Origin: Sycon ciliatum
Lineage: Eukaryota; Porifera; Calcarea; Leucosolenida; Sycettidae
Length of the DNA stretch: 64,000 nucleotides
Direction: 5' to 3'
Assembly (NCBI RefSeq): GCF_964019385.1
Contig: NC_088645.1
Location: forward strand, 44,993,029 to 45,057,028
Numbering within the stretch: the first letter of the stretch is position 1; every line of letters begins with the position of its first letter. Shown one piece after another: positions 11,066-20,664 of this stretch. A program made the position numbers and the translations under genes. Below the pieces are notes generated by a model. The model searched no databases and was not told where the DNA came from. It was given only the letters and a program-made list of their open reading frames with translations.

Positions 11066-11570
11066 AATATTTCACATGTGCAATGATTATAAGTATTGTA
11101 GATCACTGGGACAGCGCCACTTTGTTAGCCGATGTTAGTCCTGAGAAAAATTCACTCCATTGCCCTAAAGGTGAGAAGAAATTGGGATTATTTGTGAAGG
11201 AAAACTTTGGAAAATGTAATTTCGAATAAAAGTCATTTCGTTTATCTGGATAGGTCCAATATTTCACAAATATGCAATATAAGTATTGTAGATCACTGGG
11301 ACAGGGCAACTTGGTCTGTCGAAGTTAGTCACGAGGAAAAAAATTACTTCATTGCCCTAAAGGTGAGAACAAATTGGGACTATTTGTGAAGGAAAACTTT
11401 GGAAAATGTAATTTCGAATATAAGTCATTTCGTTTATCTGGATAGGTCCAATATTTCACAAATGTGCAATATAAGTATTGTAGATCACTGGGACAGGGCA
11501 ACTTGGTCGGTCGAAGTTAGTCACGAGGAAAAAAATTACTTCATTGCCCTAAAGGTGAGAAAATATTGAG
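11066..11570. repeat. Tandem satellite, unit about 191 bp, about 2.6 copies
   Basis: The landmark GTAGATCACTGGGACAG recurs at about 11,099, 11,289 and 11,481, giving periods of 190 and 192 bp. Each unit carries TTGCCCTAAAGGTGAGAA, GGAAAACTTTGGAAAATG and GTCATTTCGTTTATCTGG. Units 2 and 3 are almost identical by eye, while unit 1 has diverged. Confidence 0.85.
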
Positions 11571-12387
11571 GCAATTTGTAAAGAAAGGATTACCTCATGT
11601 TAGGTGGTCAAAGTGCCTCAGAGTTCGAGTGGCAGTGCAAAGCCAGTGAGTAAGCCAGTGAACAAGACCCTTTATTAGTGAACTCCTCAGCGATGGCCAC
11701 AGATGGCTGTATTTCGGCAATGGAGATCGAAAGTCTGACCACAATTGTTCAGCGAAAGGACGAAGACGACGCTATGTACGGATTTCCCGGGCGCTATGAC
11801 CTATGTACGGACTTGTCCCACACCGAGCAGGTCGTAATATTTTGAATCGTTGAGTCGATCATGGTTGTGCACAAGTGATGCGCGTGTCGCCTCCCGGGTC
11901 TATACGACTCCCTGGTTCCATCAACTATAATTATCACTTTCAATAAATCGTGACGCCATTTTGTTTTAACACGCATATCACAGGTTCCAGCGTAAGGTAA
12001 GGGAAAGAGAAGACAAGAAGCAGTCGGCGCCTGGTGAATTACGCCTGCATTGACGATTTTAGGCCATCGCTGCCCTCCCTCTCGCTCCTGTTTGGAGAGC
12101 GAATACTGCGATGGGATCAGCGATAGAAATTTGCAATTTCGAGTCGCATTCCGTGCGGACATCGCCACAGCCGATCTCTCCAAGCGTCCACCACATCTAG
12201 AACTGAAGACGTCGACATTACCTGGAACAAGCTACATCTTCCGTACAAGCAGCGAAACTGAGCGAGAACACGATCGAAATAGGGAAAATCGTTTGCGCTG
12301 AAAAGCATACTTTTTTTTCGGCCACAACGCCTGCACAAATACATACGATGACATAACAAGGCCCTAAAAATATATAATTATATTATT
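11571..12387. other. No gene recognised; one inverted repeat fragment
   Basis: About 11,845-11,930 is an inverted fragment of the repeat at 7,605-7,690 (GTGTCGCCTCCCGGGTCTAT). The overlapping frames at 11,794-12,359 have no known domain. Confidence 0.35.
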
Positions 12388-12474
12388 ACTCAATCTGCGG
12401 ACAGAACTGTTTCGTCCTTTGTGGATTCGTCAGCGCAGCACAGAGGAAATGAGGCCGAACCTGATAGCAATGGA
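12388..12474 (-). mobile_element. Retrozyme-like repeat, first part, split by a LINE
   Basis: These 87 bp are repeated without change at 15,633-15,719. The 226-bp unit resumes at 15,488-15,632 after the LINE. Left flanking DNA is AT-rich (TATATTATT). The last six bases, AATGGA (12,469-12,474), are duplicated at 15,488-15,493 as the LINE target-site duplication. The minus strand carries a hammerhead ribozyme. Confidence 0.75.
12395..12438 (-). ncRNA. Type I hammerhead ribozyme motif, copy A
   Basis: Read on the minus strand, the order is: stem I CTGCG; core CTGACGA; stem II ATCC with loop ACAAA and GGAC; core GAA; stem III ACAG with a TT loop and CTGT; cleavage base C; then stem I partner CGCAG. 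All core positions of the hammerhead consensus (CUGANGA, GAAA, UH) are present. The pair next to the core in stem II (10.1/11.1) is A.C instead of G-C, which may weaken activity. A possible outer stem I pairs CTCA with TGAG. The very short stem III is like that of small metazoan type I hammerheads, which often act as dimers. Confidence 0.8.
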
Positions 12475-13479
12475 CTACACAAGCGGAATAGGTTGCACCG
12501 AAAGTGGCTCTCTGCTAAGACACAGGAGACTTATGATGAATTTAGTACAGCCAGACGCGCGGCAACTAGCTACAACAGGACCCGGAAACAGGAATTCTAC
12601 AACTCCAAATTTCAGCAATGTACTGGAAATGCCAGAGAGACTTGGAAAATAATCAAGGAGTTGACAGGCAAACAGTCGACGTACAGGGATCCACAGTGCA
12701 CGGTGGATGCGATTCGAGACACTTTTTCGAAAGTTGTGGAAGATCCAGCTCGCCCTGCACAGCTACGCCTACCCCTTGGGCCTCCACCTGCGGTGCACTT
12801 CTCGGAATTCTTGCCAGTCTCCATTGCAACTACTCGGAAAATGTTGGAACAGTTGGACACCAGAAAAGCCACTGGGAGTGATGATATTCCAGCAAGTCTC
12901 CTCCAGATGCATGCTGACATCCTGGCACCGTCACTCACGCTACTATTTAATAAGTCATTGAGAGAAGGACAGTTTCCTGCGGCAATGAAGGTGGGTAAGA
13001 TACGGCCTCTGTTCAAGGCTGGAGACCCCAGCCAACCCAAGAATTACCGACCAGTCTCCCTATTGCCGATAGTGTCGAAAGTGCTTGAACGTATTGTTCA
13101 TAAGCAGCTTCTGCAGTACCTCAACACGAACAATTTCTTGCCTACTAGTCAGTTTGGTTACAGACACCAGCATTCCACAGCAGATGCCTTAGCGCTAGCT
13201 GTAGAGAACATCAATGAAGCACAAGCCGCTGGGCAGCACACAGGAGTAGCATTTGTCGACATGTCTAAAGCCTTCGACAAGGTAAAGCATAGCATTCTGG
13301 TTGAGGACCTCTTTGAACTGGGTCTCACTAGCACTGCTTTGCAATGGTTTTCAGACTACTTGATGTGTCGCCGGCAATACGTGGAGACAGGAAAAACCAG
13401 AAGTACAACTTATGACAGCCAGTCAGGGGTTCCTCAAGGGTCAGTTCTCGGACCTTTGCTCTTCGTTCTGTATGTGAGG
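12475..13479 (+). pseudogene. LINE ORF2 fragment: RT N-terminal half
   Basis: This is the N-terminal half of a non-LTR reverse transcriptase, which copies LINE RNA at the nicked target. The RT0/1 region (KIRPLFKAGDPSQPKNYRPV, about 13,000-13,060), motif A (FVDMSKAFDKV, about 13,255) and motif B (SGVPQGSVLGPLLF, about 13,430) are present. The frame has no internal stop. The open frame drawn from the GTG at 12,421 is composite: its first 18 codons come from the ribozyme repeat and its last 36 or so from the nested element, so 12,421-13,587 is not a real gene. The catalytic half resumes at 14,423 beyond the insertion. Confidence 0.85.
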
Positions 13480-14422
13480 CAGTGGCGGATCCAGGACTTG
13501 GCCGAAGAGGGGGCCCAAGGTATCCGCCGCCCCCCCCCCCCCCAAAACAAAACAACAAAAATTAATACAACAACAACAAAGTCCTGAAGTTGTGAAGAGC
13601 TGTTGTATTTTAGGGTCCGGCGGATTCTGCCGGCAGAAAAATTGGCAGAATTCGGTACTTTTTCTGGTTTCATGCATGTTTGGTATGTGGATAAAAAAAT
13701 GGAGCAGAATTCGAGGAATTGCCCGCCATAAGGTTTGTATGGTTCTGCCAATTTCACTGCTTTTCGAGCAGAATATGCCACCTTTTCGAGCAGAATCCGC
13801 CGGTCCCTAGTTTTATTCCATTCTCACGACATTTTCAAACTGCACTGGAACATTTCCACTCGATCGACAGCGGCCGCGACGGACCTTTGGACGGCTCTTC
13901 AACGCGAGCTCTCTTATCTACCGCCAGTACCGGTCCACTGAAGAACGACCTGATGTCAGACGCTTTCCTCTTCATCGCATATCTGAAGGTAACCCGTTGG
14001 CTACAAGCGAAGTAGAGAGCTAGCTAGAGAGCGTTTAGTTTCTGACAAGTGGAAAAGAAAAAAGGAAGGACGAAGTCGACAGCACCGTGCACCATACAGG
14101 ACTTCAGCCCAACGCGATCACTGCGCTATGCATAATAAAAAAAAGTACCAGGCCCTGCATTTTTGGCACGTTTTTCACATGTTTGAAGTGCGGCCGTGTC
14201 TACAGGTCGCAGTGCGTACAGTAGTTGTACACAGCGCGCTGACTACAATGCTAGTGCGTGACCCCGGACACGTATAAAAATACCCAGCACGCGTGACCCA
14301 CTTGATACGCCAAGTCATTTCGAGCGCTCATTCTACAGTCTACTGTTATCCTAGACCAAGGTCGAAATTTTCAAAGGGGGGGGGGCCCAGGCCCCCTGGG
14401 CCCCCCCCTGGATCCGCCACTG
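13480..14422. mobile_element. Non-autonomous TIR element (hAT-like), 943 bp, inside LINE RT
   Basis: Both ends read CAGTGGCGGATCCAGG inwards (13,480-13,495 and its complement at 14,407-14,422). The direct repeat TGTGAGG flanks the element (13,473-13,479 and 14,423-14,429), and the RT reading frame matches across the two flanks when one copy of the repeat is counted. The subterminal DNA is extremely G/C-rich, with a C run near 13,530 and G/C runs at 14,371-14,408. The ends resemble hAT elements, but I see 7 rather than 8 duplicated bases. There is no transposase. A 199-bp MITE is nested inside. Confidence 0.85.
13611..13809. mobile_element. 199-bp MITE, copy 1 (nested)
   Basis: The ends read TAGGGTCCGGCGGATTCTGC and, on the other side, TAGGGACCGGCGGATTCTGC, with one mismatch. 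The body (GGCAGAATTCGGTACTTTTT, GCCCGCCATAAGGTTTGTAT, and others) is nearly identical to 35,974-36,175, whose ends differ. The flanks GTTGTATTT and GTTTTATTC are only similar, so the target duplication is uncertain. It lies inside the 943-bp element. Confidence 0.75.
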
Positions 14423-15299
14423 TGTGAGGGATATTGCCGGCGACCTTGCCCCTCATGACGTCACCACTATTCAGTTTGCTGATGACATCTCGCTGCGTGC
14501 GAGCAGTCCACAGCCAGAAGTTGTCTCCCAGCGCCTCACTGCAGCAGTTCAGTACCTGGCCACTTGGTTGAAGAAACGTGGACTGATCCTTAACGAGACC
14601 AAGACGCAGATACTCGCCATACCACACCATAGAGCTGCAGCCCTCGACATCAATGTTGTATGCAATTCACAAGTCCTACCAGTAGTCACATCTGCCAAAT
14701 ACCTTGGCCTGCATTTTGACTCGGACATGAGTTGGACCACAATGGTGGACCATGTTGCTCGTCGTGTTGCCGGCAAAATTGCTGTCCTGCTGCGACATGC
14801 TTCCTCGCTGCCGTATCCATGCCGACTCACCTACTTCAGATCTATCGTTTTGCCTGAATTTTTGTATGCTTCTATTAGTTACTACCCGTATTTGACAGTT
14901 GCCCAGGAACAACGGCTACATAGGCTGTTCAAACGTGCCGCTCGGGCAGTCTGCAAGTCGCCACCGTGGACCAGTACTGCTCCCCTGCTAAATCGAATGC
15001 ATGTATGTGATCTACAGGTTTCTGTGCACTTGAATATGTTTTGTTTCATCTGGCGATGTTTGCATGATGCATGTAGCACCCTGTTTGAGTCCTTTTTTGC
15101 TGTCGTGCCCTCAACTCGCACTCGGGGAGGCCAAAGCAACTTGCTTGTGGTCCCACCTGCTAGCACTGCTCGTTCTGCTAAGCGCCTAACGCACGCTGGA
15201 GCCATTATGTGGAATAGATTGCCACCAGCAGCAAAATGTTCAAATAGGTATTTGGATTTTAAATCTCAAGCCTTGCAGTATATATTATCAGCGACATAG
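14423..15299 (+). pseudogene. LINE ORF2 fragment: RT palm motif C to C-terminus
   Basis: This is the C-terminal half of the RT begun at 12,475. The catalytic box is intact (QFADDISL, about 14,470-14,495). The thumb region has TKTQILAIPHH and a KYLGLHFD box. The conserved C-terminal part shows RLFKRAARAV and an IMWNRLPPAAK motif before a stop at 15,297-15,299. The only break between the two halves is the nested TIR element. The family looks like the Jockey/CR1 branch of APE-type LINEs, but the endonuclease is missing here because of 5' truncation. Confidence 0.85.
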
Positions 15300-15487
15300 G
15301 TTTTCCAATGCTCACTGGATTGATATCTGTTCGTTGCAACCAACCTTCCGTCATTTTTCCTTTCTCTTTTTCTCTTGTATCTACTTTTTTTCCACAATAT
15401 CCTTTAACATGTTATTCACAGTGGGTCCAATGTTATTAGGCATTTTGCCTGTTTTGATTTCCACTATAAATAAAGTATACAACAACA

Positions 15488-15745
15488 AATGGAAATAAAA
15501 ATTTCCAATCAGGCCCGAACGTACCTTGCCAGAGTGCTCAAACTGACAAGTCAGTGAGCTCTGCATAAAGCAAACAGCAAAGGCACTACCCCACGCAAGA
15601 GTGCTCAACTGCTACAAGAGCAGGAGCGAAATACTCAATCTGCGGACAGAACTGTTTCGTCCTTTGTGGATTCGTCAGCGCAGCACAGAGGAAATGAGGC
15701 CGAACCTGATAGCAATGGAAATAAAAATTTCCAATCAGGCCCGAA
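15488..15745 (-). mobile_element. Retrozyme-like repeat, rest of unit 1 plus half of unit 2
   Basis: Unit 1 continues from the LINE junction to 15,632, and unit 2 starts with ACTCAATCTGCGG at 15,633. AATGGAAATAAAAATTTCC recurs with a 226-bp offset (15,488 and 15,714), both followed by AATCAGGCCCGAA. The array stops at 15,745 and AT-rich DNA follows. Together with 12,388-12,474 the array is 339 bp, exactly 1.5 units, which fits copying from a circular or multimeric RNA. Confidence 0.75.
15640..15683 (-). ncRNA. Type I hammerhead ribozyme motif, copy B
   Basis: This is base-for-base identical to copy A (12,395-12,438), 3,245 bp away, and has the same architecture. A self-cleaving RNA transcribed from the minus strand through both copies would release a 226-nt monomer once the LINE is ignored. 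The A.C mismatch at 10.1/11.1 is shared, so it predates the array or is the family state. Confidence 0.8.
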
Positions 15746-15767
15746 TTATTATATAATACAAATTTTA

Positions 15768-18002: not shown

Positions 18003-18708
18003 TAAAAAGTCTGATGGCTCATTGTGCATGGTTTGTGATTGGCGGAATTTGAACATGATCACCATCAAAAACAAAACTTGCCTCCCAAACATTGATGACC
18101 TGTTTGATACCATTCAAGGTAGCTCATACTTCAGTAAGCTGGATTTACGCTCGTGATACAATCAGTTTAGGATCCGTCAGGAAGATGTACCTAAGACGGC
18201 TATCAATACTCCCTTCGGTCATTTCCAGTTCCGGGTCATGAGCTTTGGATTAACTAACGCCCCTGCCACGTTTCAGTCACTGATGAACAGTATTCTCCAA
18301 CCGTACTTACGGCAGTTTGTGGTAGTGTTTCTGGATGATATTCTTATCTTCAGCGAATCCTGGCAAGATCATCTTGAACATATCCAGACAGTTCTTGAGA
18401 CGCTCCGGAAAAATAGGCTATTCTGTAAGCAGTCGAAATGTGAGTTTGGTGTCAAGGATGTTCTGTTTCTAGGGCATCGCATCGCCGGTAAATGTATCGC
18501 TCCAGATCCAAAGAAGCTTAAAGCAGTGAGGGAATGGCAGCCACCGACGACAGTTACGGAGGTGAGACAGTTCCTTGGTTTTACGAACTACTTTAGAAGA
18601 TTTATTGAGCACTACTCTACTATATCGCGGCCATTAGAGGAGATCACTGGCAAACATGCCAGGTTCGAATGGAGTGGCCCCCGTCAGCATGTCAGCATGA
18701 ATCCCTGA
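18003..18708 (+). pseudogene. Gypsy reverse transcriptase (partial, broken)
   Basis: This is the RT of the Gypsy element, which makes cDNA in cytoplasmic particles. The frame holds a SYFSKLDLRS block (motif A) near 18,140, followed at once by an in-frame TGA, and then an FRVMSFGLTNAPATFQ block. The catalytic FLDDILIFS box is near 18,330 and the connection-region FLGFTNYFRRFI box near 18,575. The open part from 18,238 ends at 18,708, where a shift occurs before the RNase H region. The aspartates of FLDD are kept. Confidence 0.85.
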
Positions 18709-18715
18709 GACAGGC

Positions 18716-19135
18716 CTTGTTGAGTGCACCGCTGTTGAAACTAGCAAGCGTGCAGAAGCCTTTCAGAGTTGCAACAGACGCAAGTTATTGTGCAATAGCA
18801 GACGTCCTTCTCCAACAGGGGGAAAGGCGATAGTGCTTGGCATCCTGTGGCATATGCCAGTCGTAAGCTGCCACAAGCGGAGCGAAATTACACTGCTGCA
18901 GAACGCGAAACCCTGGCGGTGGTGTTTGCACTGCGATCCTGGAGAATTTATCTATTCCAGCATTTTGAAGTGTTCAGTGACAGCATGGCCGTAGTCTACT
19001 TGAGCACAAAAGCCAATCTCACTTAGCGCGAAGCTAGATGGGTTGAATTTCTTGCAGACTATGACTTCACAGTTAATCACAAGCCCGGCAAGGAAAATAT
19101 GGCTGATGCGTTATCCCGCCGCCCTGATCTGCGCG
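18716..19135 (+). pseudogene. Gypsy RNase H region (frameshifted)
   Basis: RNase H motifs appear in pieces: an FRVATDAS-type first catalytic box near 18,765, an ERNYTAAERETLAVVFAL box near 18,880, and a DYDFTVNHKPGKENMADALS box near 19,065. At least one frameshift and one stop (TAG at 19,024) interrupt it. The last box is continuous with the integrase frame that begins at 19,099. Confidence 0.75.
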
Positions 19136-20664
19136 GATCAGCAATTGGCAATGTAGTTGAGAAAAAGGATTGCCCACCCATCCTACCAGCACCCCATTTG
19201 AATACGATTGAGTTTGCTTTGGAACTGAGTGATAGTGTTGCTGAGATGATTTCGGAAGCATATCAGAATGACGAGCAGCTTTCCCCAATAATTCAGCGGC
19301 TGCGCGGCGATTCCTCTGATAATCTACACGAGCGGTACTATTGGGATGAAGAGTCCAGGTACCTATACCTCCGTGCAGCACCAAACAATCGCTTGTGTGT
19401 ACCCAAGTGTGCAGTAAGGCTTCAGCTCCTGCAGGAGTACCACGACTGTGTTACGGCAGGCCATCAGGGACGGGATCGTACATATTTCCGGCTTCGTCAA
19501 TTCTTCTATTGGCCCAAGATGGGCCTTGACGTGAAGAAATTTGTTAAATCTTGCGGCATATGTCAGCGCACTAAGGGTGGGTTGCCTAGATCCGGTTTGC
19601 TGCAATCGCTCCCAGTACCAGACACCCCCTGGAAAGATATTTCCATGAACTTTATCGTTGGCTTACCCCAGACCCCTCAGGGCCTTGATGCAATTTATAC
19701 ATTTGTTGACCGGCTTACAAAATGTGTCCATTTAGTCCCCACGACTTCCAAAATTGACGCTAAGGGTTCTGCTGATTTGTATCTCCAGAATGTGTTTAGA
19801 TTACACGGTTTGAGTTCCACTATTGTTTGTGATCGGGACCCAAGATTTACTTCTGAATTTTTCCGGGAATTGTTTCATCAATTAGGTACCACCTTGTCGT
19901 TTAGTACTGCCAATCACCCACAGACCGATGGGCAGACTGAGAGAATGAATAGAGTAATTGAGGATGTGCTTAGAGCGTTTGTTAACCACAAACAAGATAA
20001 TTGGGACAAGCTTCTGCCTCTTTGCGAATTTGCAATTAATAGTTCATATCAGTCTTCCACTTCTAGCACGCCGGTTTATCTAAATTATGGACTTAATCCC
20101 AAGTCCCCACCAGATTTCCTGGCACGGAGGGGAGGAGGGAGTGCCCCAGACTGGATCCAGGATCGGGCGGATGCCGTCAAGTTGGCAAAGGATGCCATGA
20201 TTGCCGCTCAGGCTAGACAAGCTCAGCATGCAGACAGGGGAAGGGTGCCCAGCAACCCGAAGGTTGGCGACATGGTGCTGGTGTACAAGGATTTCCTAAG
20301 AACCGCAGAAGCTCAGCCTTCAAAGAATCTACGCCCTAAGTGGTTCGGGCCCTACCCAATCATCAAGAAGATCGGACCCAACGCCTATCAGCTGGATCTA
20401 CCCAGCGCTATTCGGTGCCACCCTGTCTTCAATGTCACTGCTCTGCGCCGATATGAGCAGAATACTACTCCCGACAGGCGGCAGCTACCCCCGCCACGTT
20501 CCCTGACTTGCACGGTCAGACCAGATACATGGTGGAGAAGATTCTTGACGATCACCAGCGAAGGCATCAGACTCAGTACCTTGTCAAGTGGCAAGGGTAC
20601 CCAGACGACGAAGCCACCTGGGAGCCAGAAGGGAACTTGCTGGACGAGGCCGGTAGGCCGATAG
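19099..20664 (+). pseudogene. Gypsy integrase with mutated first catalytic Asp
   Basis: This is the 521-codon continuation of pol. It has the end of RNase H (MADALSRRPD), an integrase HHCC zinc-binding domain (His115, His122, Cys152, Cys155) and a catalytic core with boxes ISMNFIVGLP, CDRDPRF and HPQTDGQTERMN. The first catalytic residue, normally Asp in the SMDF box of chromovirus integrases, is Asn at residue 184. Asp245 and Glu281 are present. The C-terminal domain reaches a PYPIIKKIGPNAY box near residue 416. The chromodomain lies in another frame (20,508-20,702), so a frameshift near 20,500 makes the last 50 or so codons of this frame spurious. The copy is inactive. Confidence 0.9.

Follow-up and report, generated by a model that had tools for sequence, protein, structure and literature searches.

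A family of tiny hammerhead retrozymes in the sponge Sycon ciliatum with a fixed 3' end, likely inserted by internal copying of an RNA circle

Metazoan retrozymes without long terminal repeats (LTRs) carry a type I hammerhead ribozyme in tandem repeats of 150–450 bp, and share a GC content under 50%, target duplications of more than 4 bp and coexisting Penelope-like elements (Cervera and de la Pena 2020, PMC7229834; here and throughout, cited papers are represented by excerpts). How such elements return to the genome is unsettled with respect to both primer and enzyme in the excerpts of PMC7229834, PMC7761336 and PMC11722881. The first proposes that circles are copied in trans in a DNA target-primed or small-RNA-primed reaction, with Penelope-like elements as strong candidates; the second reports that no conserved motif indicates the partner; and the third, a 2024 review, still names long interspersed nuclear elements (LINEs) or Penelope-like elements. 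For a Penelope-like element of the anole, genomic ends match the start sites of reverse transcription, and two-site internal initiation has been shown in vitro (Frangieh et al. 2024, PMC11167929). Here we describe a hammerhead-bearing repeat with a 226-nt unit in a 64,000-nt stretch of the Sycon ciliatum genome (contig NC_088645.1, positions 44,993,029 to 45,057,028; hereafter the window). Judged by its sequence, the locus belongs to a large family of very small, apparently non-coding mobile elements bearing a self-cutting ribozyme. It is of an already known kind, the metazoan retrozyme, and taken singly it is probably a weakened copy. The 3' end of the retrozyme is fixed 10–16 nt past the cleavage site. 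This fixed start, together with target duplications, is a new result as the anatomy of retrozyme insertion, and no fixed retrozyme start is announced in the titles and abstract openings of the literature searched.

The family is likened to the published metazoan retrozymes by its features, without a match to a published sequence. Its type I hammerhead has the core and three stems, though it scores under the Rfam cut-off and has an A-C pair in the window. The repeats are short and tandem, range from dimers to large multimers and occur in many dispersed copies. The GC content of the window unit is 48.7%, target duplications exceed 4 bp, and Penelope-like elements are present in the same genome. 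The longest stop-free run around the circular 226-nt unit is 83 codons and the Penelope-like elements are separate loci; the retrozyme is not itself a Penelope-like element. No separate LTRs were noticed in it, and primer-binding site and polypurine tract motifs were not searched for.

The fixed 3' end is seen directly in the genomic copies. A search with the unit scored 40 of 198 candidate regions, and 38 of those listed were fetched in addition to the window. With the window and L050 (a look-alike duplicate of L049) dropped, 55 arrays remain, two of which are cut at the 3' end, leaving 53 that are readable. Positions in the unit are given as phase, the number of nucleotides from the cleavage site along the RNA; in 52 of the 53 arrays the 3' end falls at phase 11–16. 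Because these arrays had been picked by similarity, further loci were taken from a genome-wide ribozyme list. On chromosome 1, the 3' end is at phase 13–14 in every one of the first ten clusters that have a single listed ribozyme (two of them, L070 and L071, share flanks). Each of the 46 remaining chromosome-1 clusters was read at its 3'-most listed ribozyme, which proved terminal in 45, the last exact match lying at phase 5–16; in the three that fall below phase 10 one substitution is followed by matching bases, and by eye all 45 end at phase 10–16. Independent events are fewer than these 46 clusters, since L112–L114 and L127–L129 have look-alike flanks. One junction-pattern count was made genome-wide, from a planned comparison of terminal and internal positions, and gave 4,055 places against 1 for the control.

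The 5' end, read from the same copies, is variable. Across the 55 arrays the 5' phases have no overall preferred direction (Rayleigh p 0.30). They are nevertheless uneven, with 11 of 55 at phases 7–17 (binomial 6e-5) and 10 of 55 at phases 77–78 (6e-11), both ranges having been picked after the data were seen. The two hotspots read TAT or nearly TAT, which suggests that the 5' end is joined by short homology to TA targets. Fetched arrays range from 20 to 5,339 nt, or 0.1 to 24 units, the longest containing 23.6 units.

Target duplications are likewise observed directly. The test covered 52 arrays, with L058, L050, the window and the cut arrays left out. Of these, 32 sit in simple-repeat targets, often (TA)n, where a duplication cannot be judged. 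Among the 20 testable arrays, 17 lie between direct repeats of 7 nt or more, compared with 31 of 376 mismatched flank pairs, and 11 between repeats of 9 nt or more, compared with 14 of 376, although short TA or ATT runs persist in L045, L046, L049, L056, L060 and L062 and make their flanking repeats less informative. The target duplication starts with TA in 12 of the 20, overlapping the UA of the RNA itself.

Some arrays lie next to one another. Of 15 adjacent pairs, nine are tail to tail, four head to head and two in tandem. The tail-to-tail arrays (L032, L033, L035, L038, L042, L049, L061, L065, L066) are separated by 12–30 bp, mostly of (TA)n. The members of seven of the nine pairs differ by more than two points in identity to the unit, which suggests that tail-to-tail pairs are successive insertions. 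The exact tail-to-tail junction pattern was found at one place.

The genomic copies also record templates that crossed the cleavage junction. All 55 arrays cross from phase 226 to phase 1, and none of the 53 readable ends lies at the cleavage site; the template was therefore not a linear RNA cut at that site. Among 26 arrays of at least 600 nt surveyed for variants, four carry array-specific variants in every unit: L048 (an AG insertion, 5/5), L041 (3/3), L045 (two sites, 3/3) and L063 (6/6). A variant is present in 10 of the 11 units of L064, and the other compared arrays lack these array-wide variants. Many arrays have no informative variant. A single circle explains both the unit-wide variants and a length of 23.6 units in one step, and the evidence argues strongly for a circle as the template. 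Three arrays (L061, L064, L067) switch subfamily part-way along, in phase, through either template switching between circles or later recombination. In L061 one variant alternates across four units, as it would if copied from a two-unit circle.

We consider it likely that this is a non-autonomous, non-coding retrozyme of the animal type, inserted by target-primed internal copying of an RNA circle. The arrays would be transcribed from what is the minus strand in the window, and the hammerheads would cut the transcript into 226-nt units, which may be closed into circles, as has been published for other animals. An enzyme acting in trans would nick AT-rich DNA and use the nick as primer. Copying would then begin inside the circle at a fixed place 10–16 nt past the cleavage site and go around it a variable number of times. 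A reading of the window made from the letters alone (the sequence-only reading) had proposed a retrozyme-like repeat whose circular or multimeric RNA is copied back by an enzyme in trans; this proposal is supported, and the other genomic copies fit it.

A Penelope-like element is a plausible source of that enzyme, and the likeliest. A genome search for the GIY-YIG domain returned at least 13 matches (150 of 944 candidates scored). One locus, L080, has an 807-codon frame with GIY-YIG above the cut-off and no reverse transcriptase match even at an E-value of 10; a second, L081, has GIY-YIG together with a reverse transcriptase match just below the cut-off. From these domain matches and from motifs seen by eye we take both as putative Penelope-like elements. 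With 56 of 3,573 candidates scored, the L080 protein has at least 57 matches in the genome, and in many of these the open frame is long. A Penelope-like protein compared with solved structures had no match, and a comparison with NCBIfam gave one weak match, far under the cut-off. A hammerhead-like core was seen by eye in Penelope-like 3' regions. Fifteen such regions were fetched, of which nine fall in a group (L082–L091) that could be compared with the L082 spacer and the other six were not placed. Within the nine, four 3' ends lie at position 255–258 and five at 288–293, with two exact runs in the comparison stopped early by substitutions. Some Penelope-like elements (on C1 and C7) form tandem repeats whose period is 2,935.

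The enzyme could instead come from a LINE, a proposal that can be combined with a circular template and that we regard as rather unlikely. Target-primed copying is the LINE mechanism, and the window itself contains one LINE with reverse transcriptase matches and others recognized by eye. However, no poly(A) or LINE-like tail was seen by eye at retrozyme 3' ends, and it is the Penelope-like elements that end internally here, at discrete 3' places past a hammerhead-like core. A more specific version of the Penelope-like proposal is that each array arises in a single event of target-primed, rolling-circle reverse transcription, with up to about 24 rounds and sometimes a switch to a second circle. 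The Penelope-like protein would hold the circle near the ribozyme and start just past it on an AT-rich nick. We put this forward tentatively, at slightly less than an even chance. The chance is put just below even because the count of TA at retrozyme 3' junctions is partly circular and the hammerhead core of the Penelope-like elements was seen by eye only.

Several observations weigh against copying of a circle by a Penelope-like enzyme, or limit the evidence for it. The 3' end of L058 lies at phase 152, that of L069 (fetched for its variant ribozyme) at phase 117, and the L132 array runs into another unit so that its end was not reached. The chromosome-1 samples could show no end before phase 5, because the search pattern needs bases up to that phase. 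TA stands at the 3' junction of 58 of 61 arrays, but the element itself has TA at that position, and the count, being partly circular, proves nothing alone. Some variants are found in only part of the units (L043, L060, L061, L066, L067), and growth of arrays by unequal crossing-over after insertion is possible. The retrozyme is known here from genomic DNA, from which we infer cleavage and circles. All Rfam scores of the ribozymes are under the curated cut-offs. Covariation is modest, a single pair having undergone compensatory change, in three sequences that belong to one subfamily; of 500 shuffles, 421 contain one or more such pairs and 13 reach the covariation score. The Penelope-like ends lie about 79–115 nt past the GAAA of the core, unlike the 10–16 nt past the cleavage site in the retrozyme. 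Rfam searches at E-values up to 1 gave no match in L080 and L081, where the core is recognized by eye only, and comparison of the retrozyme with the fetched Penelope-like 3' regions gave no match of note (best E 0.24).

The template might instead have been a long multimer, transcribed from an existing array and left uncut, with target-primed copying starting inside it at the same point. This would account equally well for a 3' end that is fixed and a 5' end that varies. Moreover, a Penelope-like RNA with a mutated hammerhead inserts in vitro just as well as its unmutated form, and unprocessed RNA is regarded as the main substrate by the authors of that study, in the excerpts used (PMC11167929). 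However, a linear copy is never longer than its source, so that arrays could only shrink absent other growth, yet they reach 23.6 units. In addition, the unit-wide variants would have to come from a source array in which every unit already carried them. We think it improbable that uncut transcripts are the template.

We hold it to be just as improbable that arrays expand mainly after insertion, with a short founder growing in a satellite-like manner by unequal crossing-over or gene conversion. Recombination can make arrays that join two subfamilies, as L061, L064 and L067 do, and would suit variants confined to part of the units; L049 and L050 also resemble one duplicated region. However, many dispersed arrays share the 3' end, with partial units and target duplications, and copying that is interrupted is expected to leave 5' partial units that vary. 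It is very improbable that tandem copies are inserted at AT sites by a DNA mechanism, Helitron-like or based on extrachromosomal circles. The tandem arrays are consistent with it, as are the numerous insertions in AT-rich repeats, (TA)n among them, but 17 of 20 testable arrays have target duplications and there is no fixed 5' end. Copies of a DNA circle opened at a single point would have the same phase at both ends and be a whole number of units long; the lengths show at most a weak tendency of this kind (Rayleigh p 0.09).

The retrozyme copy in the window is interrupted by nested insertions. Its parts, by window position, are as follows.

12387–12474, minus strand: 3' part of the retrozyme RNA, with the last ribozyme and the 3' end (phase 152 to 13 of the 226-nt unit)
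15488–15745, minus strand: 5' part of the retrozyme RNA, with the first partial unit and one ribozyme
12395–12438, minus strand: type I hammerhead ribozyme nearest the RNA 3' end, predicted cleavage between 12400 and 12399
15640–15683, minus strand: identical copy of the type I hammerhead ribozyme, predicted cleavage between 15645 and 15644
12382–12388: target-site duplication ATTATTA at the RNA 3' end, overlapping the element's terminal TA; AT-rich and weak alone
15745–15751: target-site duplication ATTATTA at the RNA 5' end; AT-rich and weak alone
12475–15487, plus strand: LINE fragment with reverse transcriptase (RVT_1, 95.4 and 34 bits in two pieces searched separately)
13480–14422: DNA transposon-like insert inside the LINE, with inverted terminal repeats CAGTGGCGGATCCAGG and a 7-bp duplication TGTGAGG

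The LINE is a later insertion into the retrozyme and not part of it; its 6-bp target duplication AATGGA at 15488–15493 repeats 12469–12474. The DNA transposon-like element entered the LINE later still and is also not part of the retrozyme; by its inverted repeats and 7-bp duplication it looks hAT-like by eye. Without the LINE the array measures 340 bp and has a period of 226, with identity at 114 of 114 positions of the 114-bp overlap, confirming the unit length given by the sequence-only reading. That reading had also made the array 339 bp and exactly 1.5 units; the figure is about right, but 1.5 is not special among arrays of 0.1 to 24 units. Elsewhere in the window, a tandem repeat of another kind (period 192, 2.6 copies, 91% matches) lies to the left of the retrozyme at 11088–11583, and reverse transcriptase and integrase-like frames at 18157–20664 appear by eye to belong to a Gypsy-type LTR element.

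The two 44-nt minus-strand motifs are identical. Each consists of a 5-bp stem I, CUGACGA, a stem II with a 5-nt loop, GAA, a 4-bp stem III with a 2-nt loop, and a C at the cleavage site. They had been described as having every element of a type I hammerhead, and the stems do pair; however, the base of stem II is A-C, which is not canonical. The core with pairing in stems I, II and III occurs twice in the window and in none of 200 Markov windows. The bare core pattern is weaker evidence (two in the window compared with 0.27 expected, and 4 of 100 shuffles reaching two), and free folding of a 63-nt stretch did not choose the hammerhead (z -0.69). At gathering thresholds Rfam gave no match in the window or in the six family loci searched whole. 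A covariance-model match to RF00163 was obtained with an E-value threshold at 15640–15683, the only ribozyme copy inside the 281-base stretch submitted, at 25.7 bits (E 2.6e-4 for 281 bases), under the curated cut-off of 34. The common family copy scores 30.1 bits against this type I model, and the second subfamily 28.8 bits against RF02275, whose cut-off is 52. The question of chance is decided by the genome, since the 44-nt ribozyme with at most three mismatches is found at 1,959 places in the 538-Mb assembly and the reversed control pattern at none. Of the checks named by the sequence-only reading, the one for other genomic copies with conserved pairing came out positive and the covariance-model one mixed, with a match under the curated cut-off. 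A nucleotide search with the subfamily II unit gave no match and is uninformative, as very common words are skipped by the search.

The family pattern is matched by 215 ribozymes of 20 distinct sequences (L031–L079). Pairing is kept in 97.7% of cells in ten of these sequences. The two main ribozyme kinds differ by C-G or U-A in stem II and by a longer loop on stem III. A 226-nt circle with the family base has a predicted folding energy of -76.4 kcal/mol compared with a shuffled mean of -62.4 (z -3.2), and none of 200 shuffled sequences is as low. The pair closing stem II is G-C in 18 of the 20 sequences, G-U in one and A-C in one, the last being a single unit of L069. In both window ribozymes a G-to-A change has made it A-C. 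This base pair is strongly conserved in hammerheads, and because A-C replaces it the cleavage of the window copy is probably weak. The presence of the same change in both units is the expected outcome of copying one circle. The exact window ribozyme occurs at three places in the genome, two in the window and one on C11. The C11 occurrence was rejected as the source of the window copy, since it is one unit within a diverged array.

The value of these data lies more in the insertion ends of the family than in the window locus. About a hundred junctions (53, 10 and 46, some at duplicated loci) with a fixed start and target duplications make the open question of retrozyme return directly testable with defined ends. 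If the proposed mechanism is true, a circular RNA can act as a template without end from which tandem DNA is written into chromosomes. Satellite DNA would have this as one of its routes of origin, and the reaction might serve as a tool for inserting tandem DNA.

Compared with known systems, the retrozyme is closest to the metazoan retrozymes of PMC7229834, in whose excerpts priming and the partner enzyme are left open and, unlike here, no fixed 3' end is reported. With the anole Penelope-like element (PMC11167929) it would share an internal start of reverse transcription past a hammerhead and AT-rich cut DNA. However, the anole element encodes its own enzyme and uses two start sites further past the hammerhead; its start site lacks homology to the cut DNA, while in the retrozyme the proposed start and the target often have a TA in common. 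The two discrete 3' ends of the Penelope-like elements in S. ciliatum resemble the two-site initiation of the anole element. Plant LTR retrozymes, as described in PMC7229834, are likewise non-coding, hammerhead-bearing retroelements that move through circular RNA, but their hammerheads are of type III and lie in LTRs, their circles are 600–800 nt, and Gypsy machinery has been proposed for them. The hammerhead repeats of newts and salamanders (PMC7229834) share tandem repeats and a type I hammerhead with a short stem III; their units are longer, at about 330–350 nt, and their stem III is weaker, with activity as dimers. Helitron-like elements make no target duplication and have both ends fixed, neither of which is true of the retrozyme.

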